This document shows, piece by piece, positions 3,844 through 48,309 of a stretch of DNA of 64,000 nt. This DNA is from an uncultured Verrucomicrobiota bacterium (GTDB lineage Bacteria > Verrucomicrobiota > Verrucomicrobiia > Limisphaerales > UBA9464). Made by a program: the position numbers and the translations under genes. The stretch covers positions 129,384-193,383 of the forward strand of contig CAIXUG010000086.1 of the NCBI GenBank assembly GCA_903922605.1, written 5' to 3'. The notes under the pieces were generated by a model. It ran no database searches. It saw only the letters and a list, made by a program, of their open reading frames with translations, and was not told the DNA's origin. Positions within the stretch are counted from its first letter, which is position 1. The number at the start of each line of letters is the position of its first letter.

Positions 3844-4239
3844 TTATACCGGATTTTCAGCCACCCCCTTGGCCCAGACTTTTTGGCAGAGGCTTTGGTC
3901 CAGAGTCGCCAATTTCAGCTTCTTTCCGGCTGCCAACCGAATGAGATGGGCATCCGAAACATCCCGGTGACCATTCAATACTGGCAGGGAATCGGCCGTC
4001 GTACTGTCAGGGAGAAAGTGGTGGTTGGGCATTAGCAGGATTGCCCGCAAGACCTGTTGAGCATCGCTAAACGACGCCCCATAACCCGGACTCATGCTTA
4101 CCCGGATGAAACCCATCTGCGTGGCCGGACAGGTCGCGAAAGCCGGGACGGAATCGAGCCAGCGGTTGGCCCGTGCATGGTCAGGATGCACCCTCCATCC
4201 GCAAGCCAGCAGCAGGTTCACGTCGAGCAGGTGGCTCAA
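3844..4239 (-). CDS. vapC: VapC-type PIN-domain ribonuclease toxin
   Basis: This 131-residue PIN-domain protein has the N-terminal LLDVNLLLA with catalytic Asp6, the central CPATQMGFIRV signature, and C-terminal acidic positions in VSDAHLIRLAA and KLATLDQSL. PIN toxins of TA modules cut RNA (tRNA, rRNA or mRNA) in a metal-dependent way. The second acidic site, often Glu in CPxTExGF, is Gln here, a change I believe is also seen in some relatives, so activity is not ruled out. The start is TTG within a TTGA overlap with the antitoxin stop, giving translational coupling. Transcription runs antitoxin then toxin, as usual for vapBC. Confidence 0.85.
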   Translation of the reverse strand: MSHLLDVNLLLACGWRVHPDHARANRWLDSVPAFATCPATQMGFIRVSMSPGYGASFSDAQQVLRAILLMPNHHFLPDSTTADSLPVLNGHRDVSDAHLIRLAAGKKLKLATLDQSLCQKVWAKGVAENPV

Positions 4240-4487
4240 GGCGTATCCTCCAACAATGACTTTACCCGTTCCGGCGTCATTGGAAGTGCTCCTTGGGGAG
4301 CTACAAGCACCGGACGACCATATTTACCCGTGACCAGCTTGGCGCGTTTTGGCTCGTCACGCTGGATGATGAGTTTTTCCCCTTCCAAAGTGAGTGCCAC
4401 CCGGTCTCCCGCTTGAAAGTGCAAGGCTTTCCGAATTCGGCTGGGAATGACCAATTGGCCTTTGGTGGACAGGATTACCGTGCTCAC
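4236..4487 (-). CDS. vapB: AbrB/MazE/SpoVT-type antitoxin (VapB)
   Basis: This 83-residue protein has a swapped-hairpin AbrB DNA-binding domain in its first 45 residues (STKGQLVIPSRIRKAL, then GDRVALTLEGEKLII), the standard antitoxin fold for this class. The remaining tail (about residues 50-83, ending PERVKSLLEDTP) would thread across the toxin active site. It starts at GTG 4487 and its TGA overlaps the vapC start by 4 nt. Such antitoxins bind their own promoter alone or with the toxin, so autoregulation is expected from the region just right of 4487. Confidence is high because domain and arrangement agree. Confidence 0.87.
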   Translation of the reverse strand: MSTVILSTKGQLVIPSRIRKALHFQAGDRVALTLEGEKLIIQRDEPKRAKLVTGKYGRPVLVAPQGALPMTPERVKSLLEDTP

Positions 4488-5970: not shown

Positions 5971-6888
5971 GTGCATACTCTGTGCCATTCGCAACGACGA
6001 CTCCGCCTTTTCTCGCTTTTTACGCTGATGCTGGCGGGCATGACCATCGCCCTTGGAGCCACCGATGTCAAAGCAGCTGAACAGTTTAGCTGGCCGGCCT
6101 TCTTCGGGCCGTTTCACATGATTGTGCTGCACTTTCCCATTGGTTTCCTGACCCTGACAGTGCTGCTGGAGCTGCGTGCCATGCTCAAACCCGAGCGCAA
6201 TTCGCGCCGTGCCGTCGCATTTGCCCTGCCGATCACCACCGCCACCGCGCTGGTAACCGTGGCCTTGGGCTGGATGCGGGCGGGAGCTGGGGAATTTGAC
6301 GAACACCTGCTGGCCTGGCACCGGATGGCGGGGATCGGGGTGCTGTTCTTCTGTTTTTTTGCCTGGCTCGTGCATCGCGCTTTCCAGCAGGTGCCGGACT
6401 CCTCGATCTTTCGCTTTGGCTATCGCGGTCTGCTTCTGGCGGCTTTTGTCTGCCTGAGCCTGGCTGGTCACTTTGGTGGCAACCTCACGCACGGGTCGGG
6501 ATTTCTCACCCTCAATGCCCCGCCGGCCCTGAAGCGCCTGCTGGCCGGCCCGCCGGCTGAAAGCACCGCCGTCAAGCCGGCGGCGGGTGGCACCCTCTAC
6601 ACGAAGACCGTGCAGCCCGCCTTTGCCAAGAAATGCTACTCCTGCCATGGGCCTGAAAAACAAAAGGGCAAGTTCCGCCTCGATCTGCGCGAGGCCATTC
6701 TCAAGGGCGGCGACAGCGGCGAACCGGTGGTCACCCCGGGTGATCTGGAAAAAAGCCGGCTGCTTTACCACGTGCTGCTGCCCCGCGATCACGACGATGC
6801 CATGCCGCCCAAGGGCAAGGAGCCGCTTTCCCCGGAAGAGATCGTCGCCGTGGGCCAATGGATTCTGTCCGGCGCCAAGTTCGATTAG
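5971..6888 (+). CDS. DUF2231 membrane domain fused to planctomycete-type cytochrome c domain
   Basis: The protein begins with a signal-like segment, then a membrane region resembling DUF2231 ([20 protein letters not shown] and three more hydrophobic helices, about residues 45-190), then a soluble haem domain with CYSCHG near residue 222 and the conserved MPPKGK loop that may give the Met haem ligand. This last part matches the PSCyt1 family found with PSD1 proteins. It is probably a periplasm-facing electron carrier. The start is uncertain: GTG 5971 gives the best signal peptide, while GTG 5932 would add 13 residues. ppk1 follows 72 bp downstream on the same strand. Confidence 0.8.
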
Positions 6889-10065: not shown

Positions 10066-10118
10066 TCTAACCATTTATTAGAAAAGATGCGGCGATAAGT
10101 AACAGAACCAATTCCACT

Positions 10119-10979
10119 TCAGACAGGTTCCATTATTTTATTAATAAGATCACCGTATCGATACAGGATATGCGTTGAAGCGGCCGCTCGCTGCTGAAGA
10201 TTGTGAAGAACAAAGCAGATCGCCTGCAAATCTGGATCAGTGGTCGAAACCCAAAATACACCCGGTTCGAATGGCATGCATATTTTGGTCACAGGATCAA
10301 ATCTACTAATTCCTTCATCCGCTCTGAACACCGCATACTTTCCAGCAACATGAATTATGTTCGGTCTTCGCGCTATCGGCACTTGAGGGTTGCTGGAATA
10401 AAAATCGTTCAAGTGTTTAAGAATTGTATCGGATGAAAGGCCATCGTTTGCATAAACGATTTTGTAAGGCCAATCCTCATAGTTTTTTATCTTGATAGTA
10501 AAAGACACCCGACCGTCAAGCGACTCCGTTGGTGGAATCGAGGCAATTCCAGCGAGAGCGTGATGTAATTGAGCCTTATCCAGGGTTGATTTTATAGATG
10601 CAACTCCTAATGTCCCTTCAACAGGCGAGAAAGATTTTCCATCTCCGCTCAGGTTGTTAAAGTTGTATCGAGGAGCAGTATCTGTCGCCACAATCACGTC
10701 TAATTGCTTCGATTCTGTTCCATCAGTATGGAAAAGAAATCCGCCAAGGAATACATTACATTTAGATGGGGCGTGCTGTTTTAGGAAATCAGCATAAAAT
10801 CTTTCACGCGACAGCCCTATGTCAGTTGTATTAGGAAATACCGAAGCGACCTCAGCGTCGCCGCGAAGAACTTCACCAACCTTAAGGTAGTACTTTCGAA
10901 GACGTGCATGAAAGTTGGCAGGCATTTTTTGACGTTGCTCTTGTAGAAATTCAGTCTTGCCACCGAACTTAGACCTCAC
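10119..10979 (-). CDS. DUF6602-like protein, possibly nuclease-fold, AT-rich
   Basis: The product has 286 residues from GTG 10979 (or 268 from ATG 10925). The core resembles what I recall of DUF6602: a helical N-terminus, then a strand with LDVIVATD after SKQ, and later VASIKSTLDKAQL, which looks like the E/D-x-K strand of a PD-(D/E)XK nuclease fold. If that alignment is right, the expected Glu before the Lys is Ser here. The gene is much AT-richer than its surroundings, suggesting transfer. Its start overlaps the stop of the upstream TIM-barrel gene by 4 nt (GTGA), so it is translated from the same message. No partner of a known defence system is adjacent. Confidence 0.55.
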   Translation of the reverse strand: MRSKFGGKTEFLQEQRQKMPANFHARLRKYYLKVGEVLRGDAEVASVFPNTTDIGLSRERFYADFLKQHAPSKCNVFLGGFLFHTDGTESKQLDVIVATDTAPRYNFNNLSGDGKSFSPVEGTLGVASIKSTLDKAQLHHALAGIASIPPTESLDGRVSFTIKIKNYEDWPYKIVYANDGLSSDTILKHLNDFYSSNPQVPIARRPNIIHVAGKYAVFRADEGISRFDPVTKICMPFEPGVFWVSTTDPDLQAICFVLHNLQQRAAASTHILYRYGDLINKIMEPV

Positions 10980-11839
10980 ACATCACAAATGCCAACGCCC
11001 TGCTTCAGCGAAGCCAGCGCATCGGGCCGGGCGGGGATGAACTCCTGGGCGACGTGGCCCTTGAAGCCGGTCGCCACGATGGCCTGCATGATGGCCGGGT
11101 AATACAGCTCCTGCGTGGAGTCGATCTCGTGGCGGCCCGGGACGCCGCCCGTGTGGTAATGGGCGAAGTACTTGTGCTGCTTCTTGATGGTGGCGATGAC
11201 GTCGCCCTCCATGATCTGCATGTGGTAGATGTCGTAGAGGAGCTTGAAGCGCTCGCTGCCCACGGCCTCGCACAGGGCCACACCCCACTTGGACAGGTCG
11301 CACTGGTAGTCGGGATGGTTCACCTTGGAGTTCAACAACTCCATCACCAGCTTGACGTTGTTCTTCTCGGCGATGGGCAGCAGGCGCTTGAGGCCGATGG
11401 CGCAGTTTTTGATGCCCTCCTCGTCCGACTGGCCGGCACGGTTGCCGGAGAAGCAGATGATGTTCTCGCACCCGAGGTTCATCACCTTCGGGGCGGCATC
11501 GGCAAACCACTGGGCGATGGTGTCGTGATTCTCCAGCCGGTTCAGGCCCTTGGTGATTCCGCCCGGAATGCCGCTGACCATCGCGCAGGTGAGGCCGTGC
11601 TTCTGGATGGTCGGAATATCGTTCACTTCGAGCAGTTCGATGGAGTGCAGCCCGAACTCCTTGCCGGCAATGGCGAGGGTCTCCAACTCGATCTTGGGAT
11701 AGCACCACTTGCAGACGGAATGGTTCACGTGTCCCTTGGTGCCGGCGACGGCATCGGCGGCGTTGAGGCGTTGGCCGAGCGAGACGGCGGCAACGGCGGA
11801 GGCGGCGGAAGTAAGCGCAGTGCGACGGGAGATTTTCAT
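10976..11839 (-). CDS. Exported TIM-barrel sugar isomerase/epimerase-like protein (hydroxypyruvate isomerase family)
   Basis: The protein has 287 residues from ATG 11839, with a Tat-type leader (KISRRTALTSAASAVAAVSL) and cleavage expected near LNAADA. The body is an AP-endonuclease-2-like TIM barrel with features of hydroxypyruvate isomerase relatives: the VMELLNSK strand with a metal-binding Glu, LLYDIYHMQIMEGD with Asp and His ligands, the FAHYHTGG strand, and a C-terminal QEFIP Glu. Known relatives interconvert hydroxypyruvate and tartronate semialdehyde, but exported PVC versions are of unknown substrate. An in-frame extension to 12031 is ignored because it would precede the signal peptide. 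Divergent from the YggS gene. Confidence 0.85.
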   Translation of the reverse strand: MKISRRTALTSAASAVAAVSLGQRLNAADAVAGTKGHVNHSVCKWCYPKIELETLAIAGKEFGLHSIELLEVNDIPTIQKHGLTCAMVSGIPGGITKGLNRLENHDTIAQWFADAAPKVMNLGCENIICFSGNRAGQSDEEGIKNCAIGLKRLLPIAEKNNVKLVMELLNSKVNHPDYQCDLSKWGVALCEAVGSERFKLLYDIYHMQIMEGDVIATIKKQHKYFAHYHTGGVPGRHEIDSTQELYYPAIMQAIVATGFKGHVAQEFIPARPDALASLKQGVGICDV

Positions 11840-12057
11840 GTGAGTGGAACGGTGTTGAGGAGCAAACGCCGCACCGCAGTCAGCGGCAAGTTGAAACTCA
11901 GTCCTAGCCTTCCTGGTAGCAGCCGACGTCAGGAGGCTCAAACTTCCCCTCCCTTCAGATGGAGCCTCGTCACCTCGGCTGCTACGCCCGCTCAGCCGCG
12001 ACGAAAGATGCGCCCGTTTTTGTTTTAGCACCGCCTCATGCCTCCTATTCTCCGCCC

Positions 12058-12768
12058 GTGCCGCTCGCCGAGAATCTTGCCGCCGTCCAATCCCGCATCG
12101 CCGCAGCGTGCGAGCAGGCCGGGCGTGATCCCTCCGAAGTCACGCTGCTGGCGGTCTCCAAGAACCATCCTGCCGAGTCGGTCGCCGAGGCCGTACGGCT
12201 CGGTCTCACGATCTTCGGCGAGAACCGGGTGCAGGAGGCCAAAGTGAAGATTCCGCTCAGCCCGGGCCGCGCCCGCTGGCACTTCATCGGTCATCTCCAA
12301 TCCAACAAGGCCCGTGACGCCGTGGCCCTCTTTGAGACCATCGAGAGCGTGGACAGCCTCGCGCTTGCCGGCGAACTCCAGAAGCAGGCCGAGAAGCAGG
12401 CGAAGACGCTGAAGGTGCTGCTGGAGGTGAATGTCGCCGGAGAGTCTTCAAAATTTGGCTGGAACCCCGAGCGACTCCTCGCCGAATTCATGCAGCTCAA
12501 CGCCTTTTCCCGCCTCGAACTGCACGGGCTGATGACCGTCGCCCCCTATGCCACGGACGCCGAGAAGGTGCGGCCCGTCTTTCGACGCCTGCGGGAATTG
12601 CGCGACCGCTGCGCGGATCTGCTGGGGGCTCCCCTGCCCGTCCTGAGCATGGGCATGAGTGGCGATCTGGAAGTCGCCATCCAGGAAGGCGCAACCACCG
12701 TGCGCGTCGGCACCGCACTCTTTGGACCGCGTCCGAAAGTGGTCCGGGAAAGCACCGAAGAAATCTGA
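12058..12768 (+). CDS. Pyridoxal-phosphate homeostasis protein (YggS/PROSC family)
   Basis: The 236-residue product has the YggS alanine-racemase-like barrel: LLAVSKNHP supplies the PLP-binding Lys, followed by FGENRVQEA, WHFIGHLQSNKA, the LLEVNVAGESSKFG strand, the GLMTVAP segment, SMGMSGDLEVAIQEGAT and TVRVGTALFG. These proteins bind PLP and buffer the free cofactor and vitamin B6 pools. GTG 12058 is chosen because the conserved N-terminal helix (AENLAAVQSRIAAAC) starts right after it; a longer frame begins at 11959. The next gene follows after 16 bp, so the two are probably co-transcribed. Confidence 0.93.
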   Translation: MPLAENLAAVQSRIAAACEQAGRDPSEVTLLAVSKNHPAESVAEAVRLGLTIFGENRVQEAKVKIPLSPGRARWHFIGHLQSNKARDAVALFETIESVDSLALAGELQKQAEKQAKTLKVLLEVNVAGESSKFGWNPERLLAEFMQLNAFSRLELHGLMTVAPYATDAEKVRPVFRRLRELRDRCADLLGAPLPVLSMGMSGDLEVAIQEGATTVRVGTALFGPRPKVVRESTEEI

Positions 12769-45691: not shown

Positions 45692-46207
45692 TCAGTCGGA
45701 CTTTTCGGGCTTATTTTCCATCGCCTCCCCTGGATGGTGATGGTGGTGGAACAGCGTCGCGCGATTGCGATAGAGGTATTCGACGATGAACACGTTGCTG
45801 AGTGTCACCACGAGCAGGCCGATGTGAAACTTGTGGGCCAGCTCGAAAATCTCGATCGGAATGAAGAACGCCGACTGACCGATCGAGAGCCATCCGGCCC
45901 AGCGCGTGCGGAAAGCCAGGCCGACACCCTCCACCACGGCAAAGGTGCCGTATAGAAACGAGCCCGAAGCCATCCACAGCATGGAATTGGGCGTCACGTT
46001 CTTCAGATTGATGGCCATCTCGGAGAAGAACTTGCGCTCCGGATCCAGGTGAAACCAGTTCAGGACCCGGTGCAGCTCAAACGGCAGATCATTATCTGAA
46101 AGCGTGTACAGCCCGAACGCAATCGACAGGAAAAACGCCGCCTTCACCACCTTGTAGACGATGATCGCGTACAGCGCCGGGGCGCGTGGAAATTTTTCCG
46201 CGGACAT
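45692..46207 (-). CDS. DUF2127 family membrane protein
   Basis: The 171-residue protein has four predicted helices: YAIIVYKVVKAAFFLSIAFGLYTL, SMLWMASGSFLYGTFAVVEGVGLAF, AGWLSIGQSAFFIPIEIFELAH and IGLLVVTLSNVFIVEYLY, with the LFHHHHHPGE stretch near the C-terminus giving a natural His run that might bind metal. The spacing of helices and the YxxxKxxxA start fit DUF2127. The start overlaps the glyS stop by one base (TGATG), so it is translated by re-initiation from the glyS message. Role unknown. Confidence 0.85.
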   Translation of the reverse strand: MSAEKFPRAPALYAIIVYKVVKAAFFLSIAFGLYTLSDNDLPFELHRVLNWFHLDPERKFFSEMAINLKNVTPNSMLWMASGSFLYGTFAVVEGVGLAFRTRWAGWLSIGQSAFFIPIEIFELAHKFHIGLLVVTLSNVFIVEYLYRNRATLFHHHHHPGEAMENKPEKSD

Positions 46208-48309
46208 CAGCGTACCTTTGGCAGCAGCAGCCCCAGCAGGTCCTGGATCGCGACCCGCGTCTGCTGCTGCGTGTCCCGGTCGCGGAGTGTCACGGTGTCG
46301 AGCAGCTCCGGCTTCTCTCCCAGAGTGTCGAAGTCAATGGTCACGCCAAACGGCGTGCCCGCCTCGTCCTGTCGCGCGTAACGGCGACCAATGGCCCCGC
46401 CATCGTCGTAGAAGACGGTCATATGGGGCCGCAACAGGTCGCGCACGGCCTTCGCCTTCGCGACCAGCTCCGGCTTGTTCTTCAGCAGCGGAAAGATGCC
46501 GACCTTCACCGGGGCGATGCGCGGATGAAACTTCATCACCACGCGGGTCTCGGATTTGCCCTTCTCGTCCGTAGTGGTGAGTTCGCTGAAGGCGTTCGCA
46601 AGCAGCGCCAGAATGAGGCGGTCCACGCCGGCAGAAGGCTCGATCACATGGGGAATATACTGTCCCTTGGCCAGTTTGTCGAAATACACCTTGGCTTCGG
46701 CCTCCGCCTGCACCTTCGCGTCGGCTTCAATCGCACCCTTCTTTAGGCAGGCGGTAGTCTTGCCGGCGACGAACTTCGCCTGCATGGCGGCCTTCTTCGT
46801 CTCGTCGAGCTTGCCCCAGGCGGCGCGCAGTTCCTCATCGAACACGCCCATCGTCTTGCCGGAATGCTTCTCGTGCTGCGTCAGGTCGAAGTCGCCACGC
46901 GCGGCGATGCCTTCCAGTTCCTGCGTGCCGAACGGAAACTTGTACAGGATGTCCACACACGCCCGCGCGTAGTGCGCCAGCTCCTCCGGCTTCTGCCAGT
47001 ATTCCTCGAAGCAGTCGCGCGTCAGGCCGATGCCCTCGTAGAAGCGGATGCGCTGCTCCACCCAGTACTTGTGCCAGACCTCCCAGCCCCAGTCGGCCTG
47101 AGGTTCGCCCTGCCAGGCCTTGTCCGCGGCCTTGGCCACCGAGCCGGCGAGCGCCTCGACGGCCTCGTCGGGTTTGATGAAGAACTCCAGCTCCATCTGC
47201 TCGAACTCGCGGGAGCGGAAGGTGAAATTACGCGGCGTGACCTCGTTGCGGAAGGCCTTGCCCATCTGCCCGATGCCGAAGGGCACCTTCTGCCGCGCCG
47301 TCTCGTGGACGTTCTTGAACTGCGCAAAGATGGCCTGCGCTGTCTCGGGGCGGAGATAGGCGATATTGTCATCCGACTCCACCGGGCCGTAGTGGGTCTT
47401 GAACATCAGGTTGAACGGACGAGGGTCGGTGAGCAATGAACCATTTTCGGGGTTAAAGCGCTGCGACAACAGATGCCCTGGCCCAACCTTTTCTGTTCGA
47501 TCCAGAATTGGATTCGGCCGGATCACGCCAAGCGTTGCATAGTATTGTCTGGCAATTTTATGAGCCTTTTCGGGAGATGAATTTTCAGGAATCAAAACCG
47601 CAAAAGTTTTGTCTGATTCCCGTTTGCGCTCCAATTCATCAATCCGCGCATTAACTATGGCTAGTTCTGCGACTAACTCTGTAGCCGAATATCCTGTGAC
47701 TGATCGCTTTTCAAGCGTTTCCCATTTCGCATATAGGGAGAACAACTCGTCAAATTCACTATCGAGTAATCCTGCCAATTCCTGATTTTTGTCTACTTTC
47801 GCCTTCAACAGGTCGACCCTTGCACGAAGGGCCGTTTCTTCTTCGCTAGGGCCAACCCACTCTGAAGATCCCAACCGAGAGATCGCGAACTGGGCAAGCC
47901 GAACCAATTCTTCGGAAAATTCGCGACGTTCTGCGTCAATCGAGGTCTTTGCTCCTGCATAATGGTATGCAGTTCCAGTCTGTGGTTCTACTTGATCCGC
48001 CCGAAAGCGTTTCTTCGTCAGCAAGCAGTCGGACATCGGGTCCGTGAACGTTGCGACGTGACCCGACGCCTCCCAGATCTTCGGGTGCATGATGATCGTC
48101 GCCTCCAGACCGGCGACGTCGTCGCGGTGATGGACGATGGTCTTCCACCACTGCTCCTTCACGTTGCGCTTCAGCTCCGCGCCGAGCGGGCCGTAATCCC
48201 AAAAGCCGTTGATGCCGCCGTAGATCTCCGACGACTGGTACACAAACCCGCGGCGCTTGCAGAGGCTGACGATCTTCTCCATCAGCACGTTTTCTTTCGG
48301 CTCGGACAT
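46207..48309 (-). CDS. glyS: Glycyl-tRNA synthetase (dimeric type) with a large in-frame insertion
   Basis: The 700-residue class II synthetase charges tRNA-Gly. N-terminal motifs FVYQSSEIYGGINGFWDYGPLG and the SGHVATFTDPM block, motif 2 around FRNEVTPRNFTFRSREFEQME, and a C-terminal anticodon-binding domain (RIAPVKVGIFPLLKN) are all standard. Usual length is 460-560. The extra lies at residues about 105-290 (DNA about 47440-47995), between KKRFRADQ and TDPRPFNLMFKT. The insert is AT-richer than the rest and helical with coiled-coil character (RVDLLKAKVDKNQELAGLLDSE, LAIVNARIDELERKRESD). No intein motifs are visible. Catalytic motifs are intact. DUF2127 is coupled downstream. Confidence 0.95.
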   Translation of the reverse strand: MSEPKENVLMEKIVSLCKRRGFVYQSSEIYGGINGFWDYGPLGAELKRNVKEQWWKTIVHHRDDVAGLEATIIMHPKIWEASGHVATFTDPMSDCLLTKKRFRADQVEPQTGTAYHYAGAKTSIDAERREFSEELVRLAQFAISRLGSSEWVGPSEEETALRARVDLLKAKVDKNQELAGLLDSEFDELFSLYAKWETLEKRSVTGYSATELVAELAIVNARIDELERKRESDKTFAVLIPENSSPEKAHKIARQYYATLGVIRPNPILDRTEKVGPGHLLSQRFNPENGSLLTDPRPFNLMFKTHYGPVESDDNIAYLRPETAQAIFAQFKNVHETARQKVPFGIGQMGKAFRNEVTPRNFTFRSREFEQMELEFFIKPDEAVEALAGSVAKAADKAWQGEPQADWGWEVWHKYWVEQRIRFYEGIGLTRDCFEEYWQKPEELAHYARACVDILYKFPFGTQELEGIAARGDFDLTQHEKHSGKTMGVFDEELRAAWGKLDETKKAAMQAKFVAGKTTACLKKGAIEADAKVQAEAEAKVYFDKLAKGQYIPHVIEPSAGVDRLILALLANAFSELTTTDEKGKSETRVVMKFHPRIAPVKVGIFPLLKNKPELVAKAKAVRDLLRPHMTVFYDDGGAIGRRYARQDEAGTPFGVTIDFDTLGEKPELLDTVTLRDRDTQQQTRVAIQDLLGLLLPKVR

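Follow-up and report, generated by a model that had tools for sequence, protein, structure and literature searches.

A hypervariable slot in the glycyl-tRNA synthetase of a Verrucomicrobiota bacterium, probably refilled by recombination, and a like slot in threonyl-tRNA synthetase of its relatives

The glycyl-tRNA synthetase (GlyRS) gene of the window, by which we mean the whole 64,000-nucleotide stretch of DNA analysed here, contains an AT-rich segment between motif 1 and motif 2 of the enzyme. This segment is probably one allele of a hypervariable slot. Foreign DNA, usually richer in AT, replaces the slot contents by recombination, and the surrounding enzyme is inherited normally. Recurrent recombinational replacement of the slot is well supported. 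Alternative slot contents switch between near-identical enzyme cores, most alleles with a long loop are AT-rich across the whole slot domain, and members of three loop families turn up in more than one host family. The threonyl-tRNA synthetase (ThrRS) of related genomes has a like slot, which in some of them is opened so that other genes separate the two halves of the enzyme.

The AT-rich slot of the GlyRS gene

The window encodes a dimeric-type GlyRS that scores 470.2 bits with the TIGR00389 glyS_dimeric profile, above the cut-off of 243.3. A self-search with this protein (P0001) found a single GlyRS copy in the source genome (5.3 Mb, 90 contigs, 95.8% complete), where the profile for the alpha subunit of the other GlyRS type (glyQ, TIGR00388) had no match. 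The gene is divided as follows.

46207..48309, minus strand: glyS, dimeric-type glycyl-tRNA synthetase, 700 aa (TIGR00389 glyS_dimeric profile)
47992..48309, minus strand: N-terminal core, residues 1-106, with SGH, through KKRFRADQ (nucleotide identity to relatives)
47431..47991, minus strand: AT-rich slot, residues ~107-293 (187 aa), lying between KKRFRADQ, after motif 1, and TDPRPFNL, before motif 2
47608..47946, minus strand: extra helical loop within the slot, residues ~122-234 (slot lengths and AlphaFold model)
47485..47607, minus strand: latter half of the slot's conserved alpha/beta subdomain (AlphaFold, pLDDT 92-97)
46207..47430, minus strand: C-terminal core, residues 294-700, with the catalytic motifs and anticodon-binding domain (alignment, nucleotide identity to relatives)

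The slot has a GC content of 0.479 and a third-position GC content (GC3) of 0.43, against 0.88 in each flank. In 300-bp windows, GC lies at 0.43-0.49 across 47400-47999 and at about 0.60-0.66 on either side. The sequence-only reading of this DNA had described the segment as AT-richer than its flanks, citing 28 G/C between 47641 and 47700; a recount by eye returned the same number. Among 1,549 windows of 60 codons in heuristic genes of the 64-kb window (mean GC3 0.786, s.d. 0.095), the minimum of 0.33 falls in the slot. We also scanned 41 genome stretches (859,199 bases, 844,199 unique, 16% of the genome) for internal GC3 drops in heuristic genes of at least 200 codons, a few of them double-counted and called by a procedure that favours high-GC3 genes. 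Among 461 genes the glyS slot ranked first and thrS second, the latter on a stretch fetched because it holds thrS; six more exceeded the threshold of 0.28, mostly through 40-codon segments.

Shuffled versions of the slot sequence were free of stops in 1 of 20,000 trials, which indicates that its frame is kept open. The catalytic motifs are undisturbed, as had been proposed: the class II core residues RPETAQ (R320-Q325), FRNE (F353-E356) and R564 are invariant across a 40-row GlyRS alignment.

Two other origins for the segment were considered and rejected. A dispersed repeat or mobile element carried in frame is not indicated, as the 566-bp DNA matches its own genome once only; nor is an intein, the 187-aa slot having no Pfam or NCBIfam match at E ≤1. 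Repeats inside glyS amount to just short, chance-like pairs. Elsewhere in the protein, residues ~492-540 (46690-46836, minus strand) form a stretch of ~49 residues rich in Ala, Lys and Glu, where T. thermophilus GlyRS has 12 in a gap between aligned stretches.

Forms and predicted structure of the slot

Within the order, the GlyRS slot takes either a cysteine form of 41 aa, 53 aa or about 117-127 aa, or a Cys-less form of ~100 aa (script lengths that count the anchors). Length and the arrangement of cysteines, and not structure, define these types. The loop of the Cys-less domain varies in length among relatives (182 aligned ORFs, or 219 rows with further loci, each set holding one row per distinct C-terminus). 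The window GlyRS has the Cys-less domain and the longest slot of the set, at 207 by script with anchors included; the next longest is 181 and the commonest form about 100. The sequence-only reading had proposed some 185 extra codons. A distinct AT-rich segment is indeed present, but its net extra length is ~107 aa, about 80 of the 187 residues having counterparts in Cys-less relatives.

The same reading described the segment as helical and coiled-coil-like. In the AlphaFold model the loop is predicted, at low confidence (pLDDT about 50-74), to form four helices (124-147, 156-173, 178-199 and 209-228). The conserved part is modelled with high confidence as a small alpha/beta subdomain, the second half of which comprises strand 236-240, helix 246-259 and strand 265-275. 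In this last part of the slot the best relative is 49% identical to the window protein, and the core sister, at 40%, ranks 37 of 92. A Foldseek search of the PDB with the slot domain alone returned nothing at E ≤0.001, a result that excludes no fold.

No relative of the helical loop was found in glyS of 320 genomes of the order (E 0.05). Besides its own genome, the loop search of these 320 genomes gave 12 weak matches (E 0.005-0.04), at loci without a recognised GlyRS. The loop was likewise not found in 387 genomes of the phylum, seven other genomes matching in the conserved half only. A query with the whole slot matched 45 of 96 relatives (own genome counted), nearly all in the conserved half only. 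Phages gave no relative of the loop, and viral contigs none that was confirmed. Across the order, phylum, phage, viral-contig and own-genome searches, no donor genome or matching loop for the window allele was found.

Exchange of slot contents between near-identical cores

The core and the slot of the window GlyRS are conserved to very different degrees in its nearest relatives. Its nearest core relative, G004, shares a core identity of 0.96, and the slot identity is 0.21 of the longer slot or 0.50 of the shorter; G004 has the short Cys-less form, without the loop. To the next two by core, G002 and G003, which both carry the long cysteine form, core identity is 0.92 and slot identity 0.16 of the longer (0.31 of the shorter). 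At the nucleotide level, the first 94 codons of glyS are 94.7% identical to G004 and 90-91% to G003 and G002, and the gene beyond the slot is 91.3% identical to G004 and 87.2% to G003.

This discordance extends well beyond the window allele, with strongly different slots occurring on cores 91-97% identical. Genus g34 holds four different long loops on cores 93-96% identical, and genus g50 holds all five slot states. Among pairs with core identity of at least 0.90, the last 65 slot residues have a mean identity of 0.86 between short slots (n = 35, minimum 0.78), compared with 0.47 between long slots (n = 8) and 0.51 in mixed pairs (n = 13).

In a tree of 132 cores built without the slot, restricted to the order and with L058 left out, the minimum number of changes among the five slot states is 37, against a mean of 61.2 for shuffled labels. 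The long-loop state needs 20 changes against 25.8 when shuffled, at least 15 of them forced by well-supported branches; it is only somewhat more clustered on the core tree than shuffled labels are. A tree of 170 rows with outside groups (core identity at least 0.52, at least 330 core residues) requires 33 changes of four states, under a typing rule that counts L112 as short Cys-less and four rows that do not belong to the order (L115, L118, L123 and L148) as long cysteine forms. Both trees are quick ones with many weak branches. The 132 rows derive from the best matches to the window protein and are enriched for odd and long slots, so that their frequencies are not estimates for a random sample. 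The relatives' records are metagenome assemblies wherever they are titled.

When genes with near-identical cores are compared, their DNA identity is gradually lost in the codons of CLLTKKRFRADQ and is regained around RFNPENGSLLT, which fits recombination in conserved codons. The earlier proposal of acquisition by recombination is strongly supported by the mismatch of slot and core, the core tree and the foreign-like composition. What had been taken for a single insertion does look foreign, but it represents one allele among the many that this slot shows across the order.

Composition of slot alleles and loop families

Among 27 long-loop domains, GC3 is 0.54 ahead of the loop, 0.52 within it and 0.54 behind it, compared with 0.79 and 0.80 in the flanks. 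The corresponding values for 71 short-slot domains are 0.70, 0.73 and 0.73, with flanks of 0.77 and 0.79 (both sets include rows outside the order and leave out L067 and L112). Because GC3 is low before, in and after the loop, whole domains appear to bring the AT-rich signature, not loops alone. There are exceptions on both sides: the long-loop alleles L218, L101 and L178 have no clear GC3 drop and L181 little, and the short-slot allele L174 has a drop of 0.40, in a table that leaves out slots under 30 aa.

Nine of 31 slot loops fall into three clusters, each of which spans different host families. In the first, L101 and L178 are close relatives, linked to L028 and L167 at E 0.005 and 6e-6. 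The window loop has no significant partner among the 31 (best E 0.08).

A like slot, opened in some genomes, in ThrRS

Besides GlyRS, the synthetases of the source genome with PF00587 are SerRS, ThrRS and ProRS (NCBIfam names). In its ThrRS, motifs 1 and 2 are separated by an AT-rich stretch at which the thrS profile match is broken; the second piece starts at profile position 256. SerRS and ProRS of the source genome show no comparable AT-rich internal drop. The ThrRS slots of G000, G002, G003, G004, G005 and G007 are all different by eye. Of 21 genomes with a fused ThrRS gene, 16 have a slot GC3 at least 0.2 below that of the core and five show a difference of less than 0.1, a count that omits split genes and G012, G018 and G658, in which the motif pattern was missed. 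Fourteen further genomes of g50 divide into nine with a drop of at least 0.2 and five with less than 0.1.

In other genomes the gene is split. Both halves of thrS lie on one contig in G004, G583, G646, G090, G648 and G670, and other genes stand between them in the five whose intervals were scanned (G004, G646, G090, G648 and G670). In G664 an N-half cut by the contig start accompanies a C-half; the G681 halves sit on separate contigs. In G004 one half covers positions 1-255 of the thrS profile and the other 255-551, with a RimK-like ATP-grasp gene between them. An N6 methylase and an AccI-like restriction endonuclease separate the halves in G090 (L391, 3034-5653) and G648 (L392, 2336-4997). 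The G670 halves flank an AbiGi-like gene, an IS200 transposase and a histone-deacetylase-like gene. The 8-kb split in G646 (L317, 1035-11412) holds toxin-like and other genes, including a PemK-like toxin, a nucleotidyltransferase pair and an IS200 transposase; it also contains four direct copies of the tail of the thrS N-half, at 1959 (in the gene), 4059, 4778 and 5409. The extra tail copies have different left ends and so do not point to a fixed attachment site. The tails and heads of split halves are alike between genomes by eye. Among 16 scanned ORFs lying between halves in G004, G646, G090, G648 and G670, with some small ORFs outside the scan, none was a homing endonuclease or integrase.

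ThrRS was matched in 28 of 30 genomes, as one piece across the slot in 13 and as two pieces or on separate contigs in 15. In the ProRS control (the same 30 genomes, source genome included), 26 of the 28 matching genomes gave one piece and two gave two pieces; two of the 26 one-piece matches hold an internal stop codon. ThrRS slot contents, like those of GlyRS, move independently of the core, as shown by slot diversity, base composition and the split genes rather than by a tree.

Separate thrS fragments also occur. G656 (L318) has extra C-terminal fragments at 1337-1855 and 6349-6747, downstream of an intact thrS at 10070-12169, and further fragments were seen in G495, G642, G583 and G018.

Discussion

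Slot contents may be exchanged through homologous recombination, for which the conserved codons flanking the slot would serve as anchors. This reading is suggested by the fading of DNA identity over a few codons at the edges, together with the fact that no sharp attachment site was seen. Selection on the slot may maintain its diversity. Exchange may be driven by escape from an attacker or by selfish or defence cargo carried in the slot, and the two are not mutually exclusive. Attacker escape would explain variety in both enzymes at one structural place, and cargo would explain split thrS genes and could leave helical scars. We rank escape ahead of cargo because glyS is varied without recognised cargo. 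The agent, perhaps a phage or competitor effector or an inhibitor, would recognise GlyRS and ThrRS near their tRNA-entry face, and the slot helices could serve as a decoy or shield outside catalysis; of this part of the mechanism we are less sure than of the recombination step. A broader picture, which we offer tentatively and would not expect to hold in full, is that glyS and thrS in this order are polymorphic loci and a shared target of one exchange process, their diversity arising from an arms race with an agent that attacks both, and that thrS also anchors restriction-modification or toxin modules that could not be deleted without breaking an essential gene.

Among other explanations, the most serious makes the slot a landing place for selfish or defence cargo that splits the synthetase. 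Halves with helical ends would assemble, loss of the cargo would fuse them through a long helical insert, and the GlyRS helices would be the scar of such an event. We regard this as possible, with odds clearly against it. The six single-contig thrS splits, five with intervening genes, the four tail copies in G646 (the gene's own counted) and the similarity by eye of split-half tails and heads between genomes all speak in its favour. Against it, no split glyS was recognised, though one could be missed with one ORF picked per locus, and the GlyRS GC3 drop spans the whole domain and not the loop alone. The scanned intervening ORFs lack a homing endonuclease or integrase, and the likeness of the fused ThrRS insert to split ends is a judgement by eye only.

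Eight of the 219 GlyRS rows lack a half of the protein. Six lie at contig ends; in the other two, L104 and L130 (Verrucomicrobia UBA3214), the locus lies inside the contig and the longest GlyRS ORF is without most of the N-terminal core, which may reflect a split gene, a frameshift or the choice of ORF. An apparent split glyS in G006 was set aside, as its N-part ends near the contig end and hence gives no evidence of a split.

The insert might instead be a functional appendage, acquired once, that binds tRNA-Gly or a partner. Human GlyRS matches the window GlyRS, in alignments where the boundaries of its insertion Ins1 are not visible; the position of Ins1 may coincide with the slot, between motif 1 and motif 2. 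Ins1 contacts the minor groove of the tRNA acceptor stem (PMC9908026). An insert at such a place in the catalytic core, in a frame that is kept open, would suit an appendage. However, strongly different slot contents on near-identical cores argue against a fixed tRNA-recognition role, and the loop has no relative in glyS of the 320 order genomes. We consider this origin unlikely.

Less probable still is vertical evolution of a tolerant surface loop under relaxed codon selection, with no transfer. Surface loops between class II motifs do vary. Slot GC3 is lower in AT-richer hosts, some GlyRS and ThrRS alleles lack a composition drop, and low GC3 could partly reflect relaxed codon selection. Yet slot GC3 (0.43) falls below even the intergenic GC of the 64-kb window (0.577, heuristic), whole-domain types switch on cores 91-97% identical, and SerRS and ProRS of the source genome show no such internal drop. 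Loop families common to different host families and sharp composition edges also count against it. An assembly chimera, conceivable in a 90-contig assembly, is scarcely credible given a frame open across both joins, a single copy and the recurrence of this kind of change in many independent assemblies.

Replacement of slot contents by recombination, our preferred reading, can be set beside several known systems. Human Ins1 is alike in that it, too, interrupts the catalytic part of a GlyRS; it is described as tRNA-contacting (PMC9908026), whereas the slot contents here vary between close relatives. T. thermophilus GlyRS (1ati/1b76) belongs to the same family and has the same core (VIA Z about 32), but has 47 residues (103-149) in the gap between aligned stretches where the window GlyRS has 178. 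In phage Aeh1, nrdA is split by insertion of the homing endonuclease gene mobE, and split enzyme genes can remain functional (PMC2988022). Inserted DNA there opens an enzyme gene into two polypeptides, which resembles the split thrS of the relatives. In contrast to Aeh1, the thrS cargo is restriction-modification, toxin-like or other, with no homing endonuclease in the 16 scanned ORFs, and no split glyS was recognised. The HsdS subunits of type I restriction systems exchange hypervariable specificity domains within a conserved gene. They share with the synthetases a conserved frame and an interchangeable variable segment; unlike HsdS, GlyRS and ThrRS are essential translation enzymes with a slot of no known specificity role.

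Synthetases with variable insertions, the transfer of entire synthetase genes and split enzymes are all known kinds of change. In titles and the opening parts of abstracts of the open-access literature, we found no GlyRS or ThrRS slot described as hypervariable or exchanged. To our knowledge, a core slot that is exchanged repeatedly in two synthetases is a new variant. Aminoacyl-tRNA synthetases serve as phylogenetic markers and drug targets because they are regarded as conserved. A slot swapped between close relatives in two of them implies either that variety is selected or that selfish DNA lives inside essential genes. On either reading there is something new to search for, an antagonist or a mobile strategy, and both the slot alleles and the split thrS genes offer direct, testable handles.

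Additional features of the window and source genome

Two large proteins of the source genome (L298, 10681-12622; L299, 4453-7516) carry short AT-rich in-frame inserts with SVISDSV- or SVISESV-like repeats, possibly dispersed repeats read in frame. Within the window, a gene for a DUF6602 protein (Pfam; 10119-10979, minus strand) lies in an AT-rich stretch (GC 0.44-0.46) and is possibly a recent arrival. At 3844-4487 (minus strand), a PIN-domain protein (Pfam) adjoins a short ORF that is AbrB-like by eye, perhaps forming a VapBC-type toxin-antitoxin pair.
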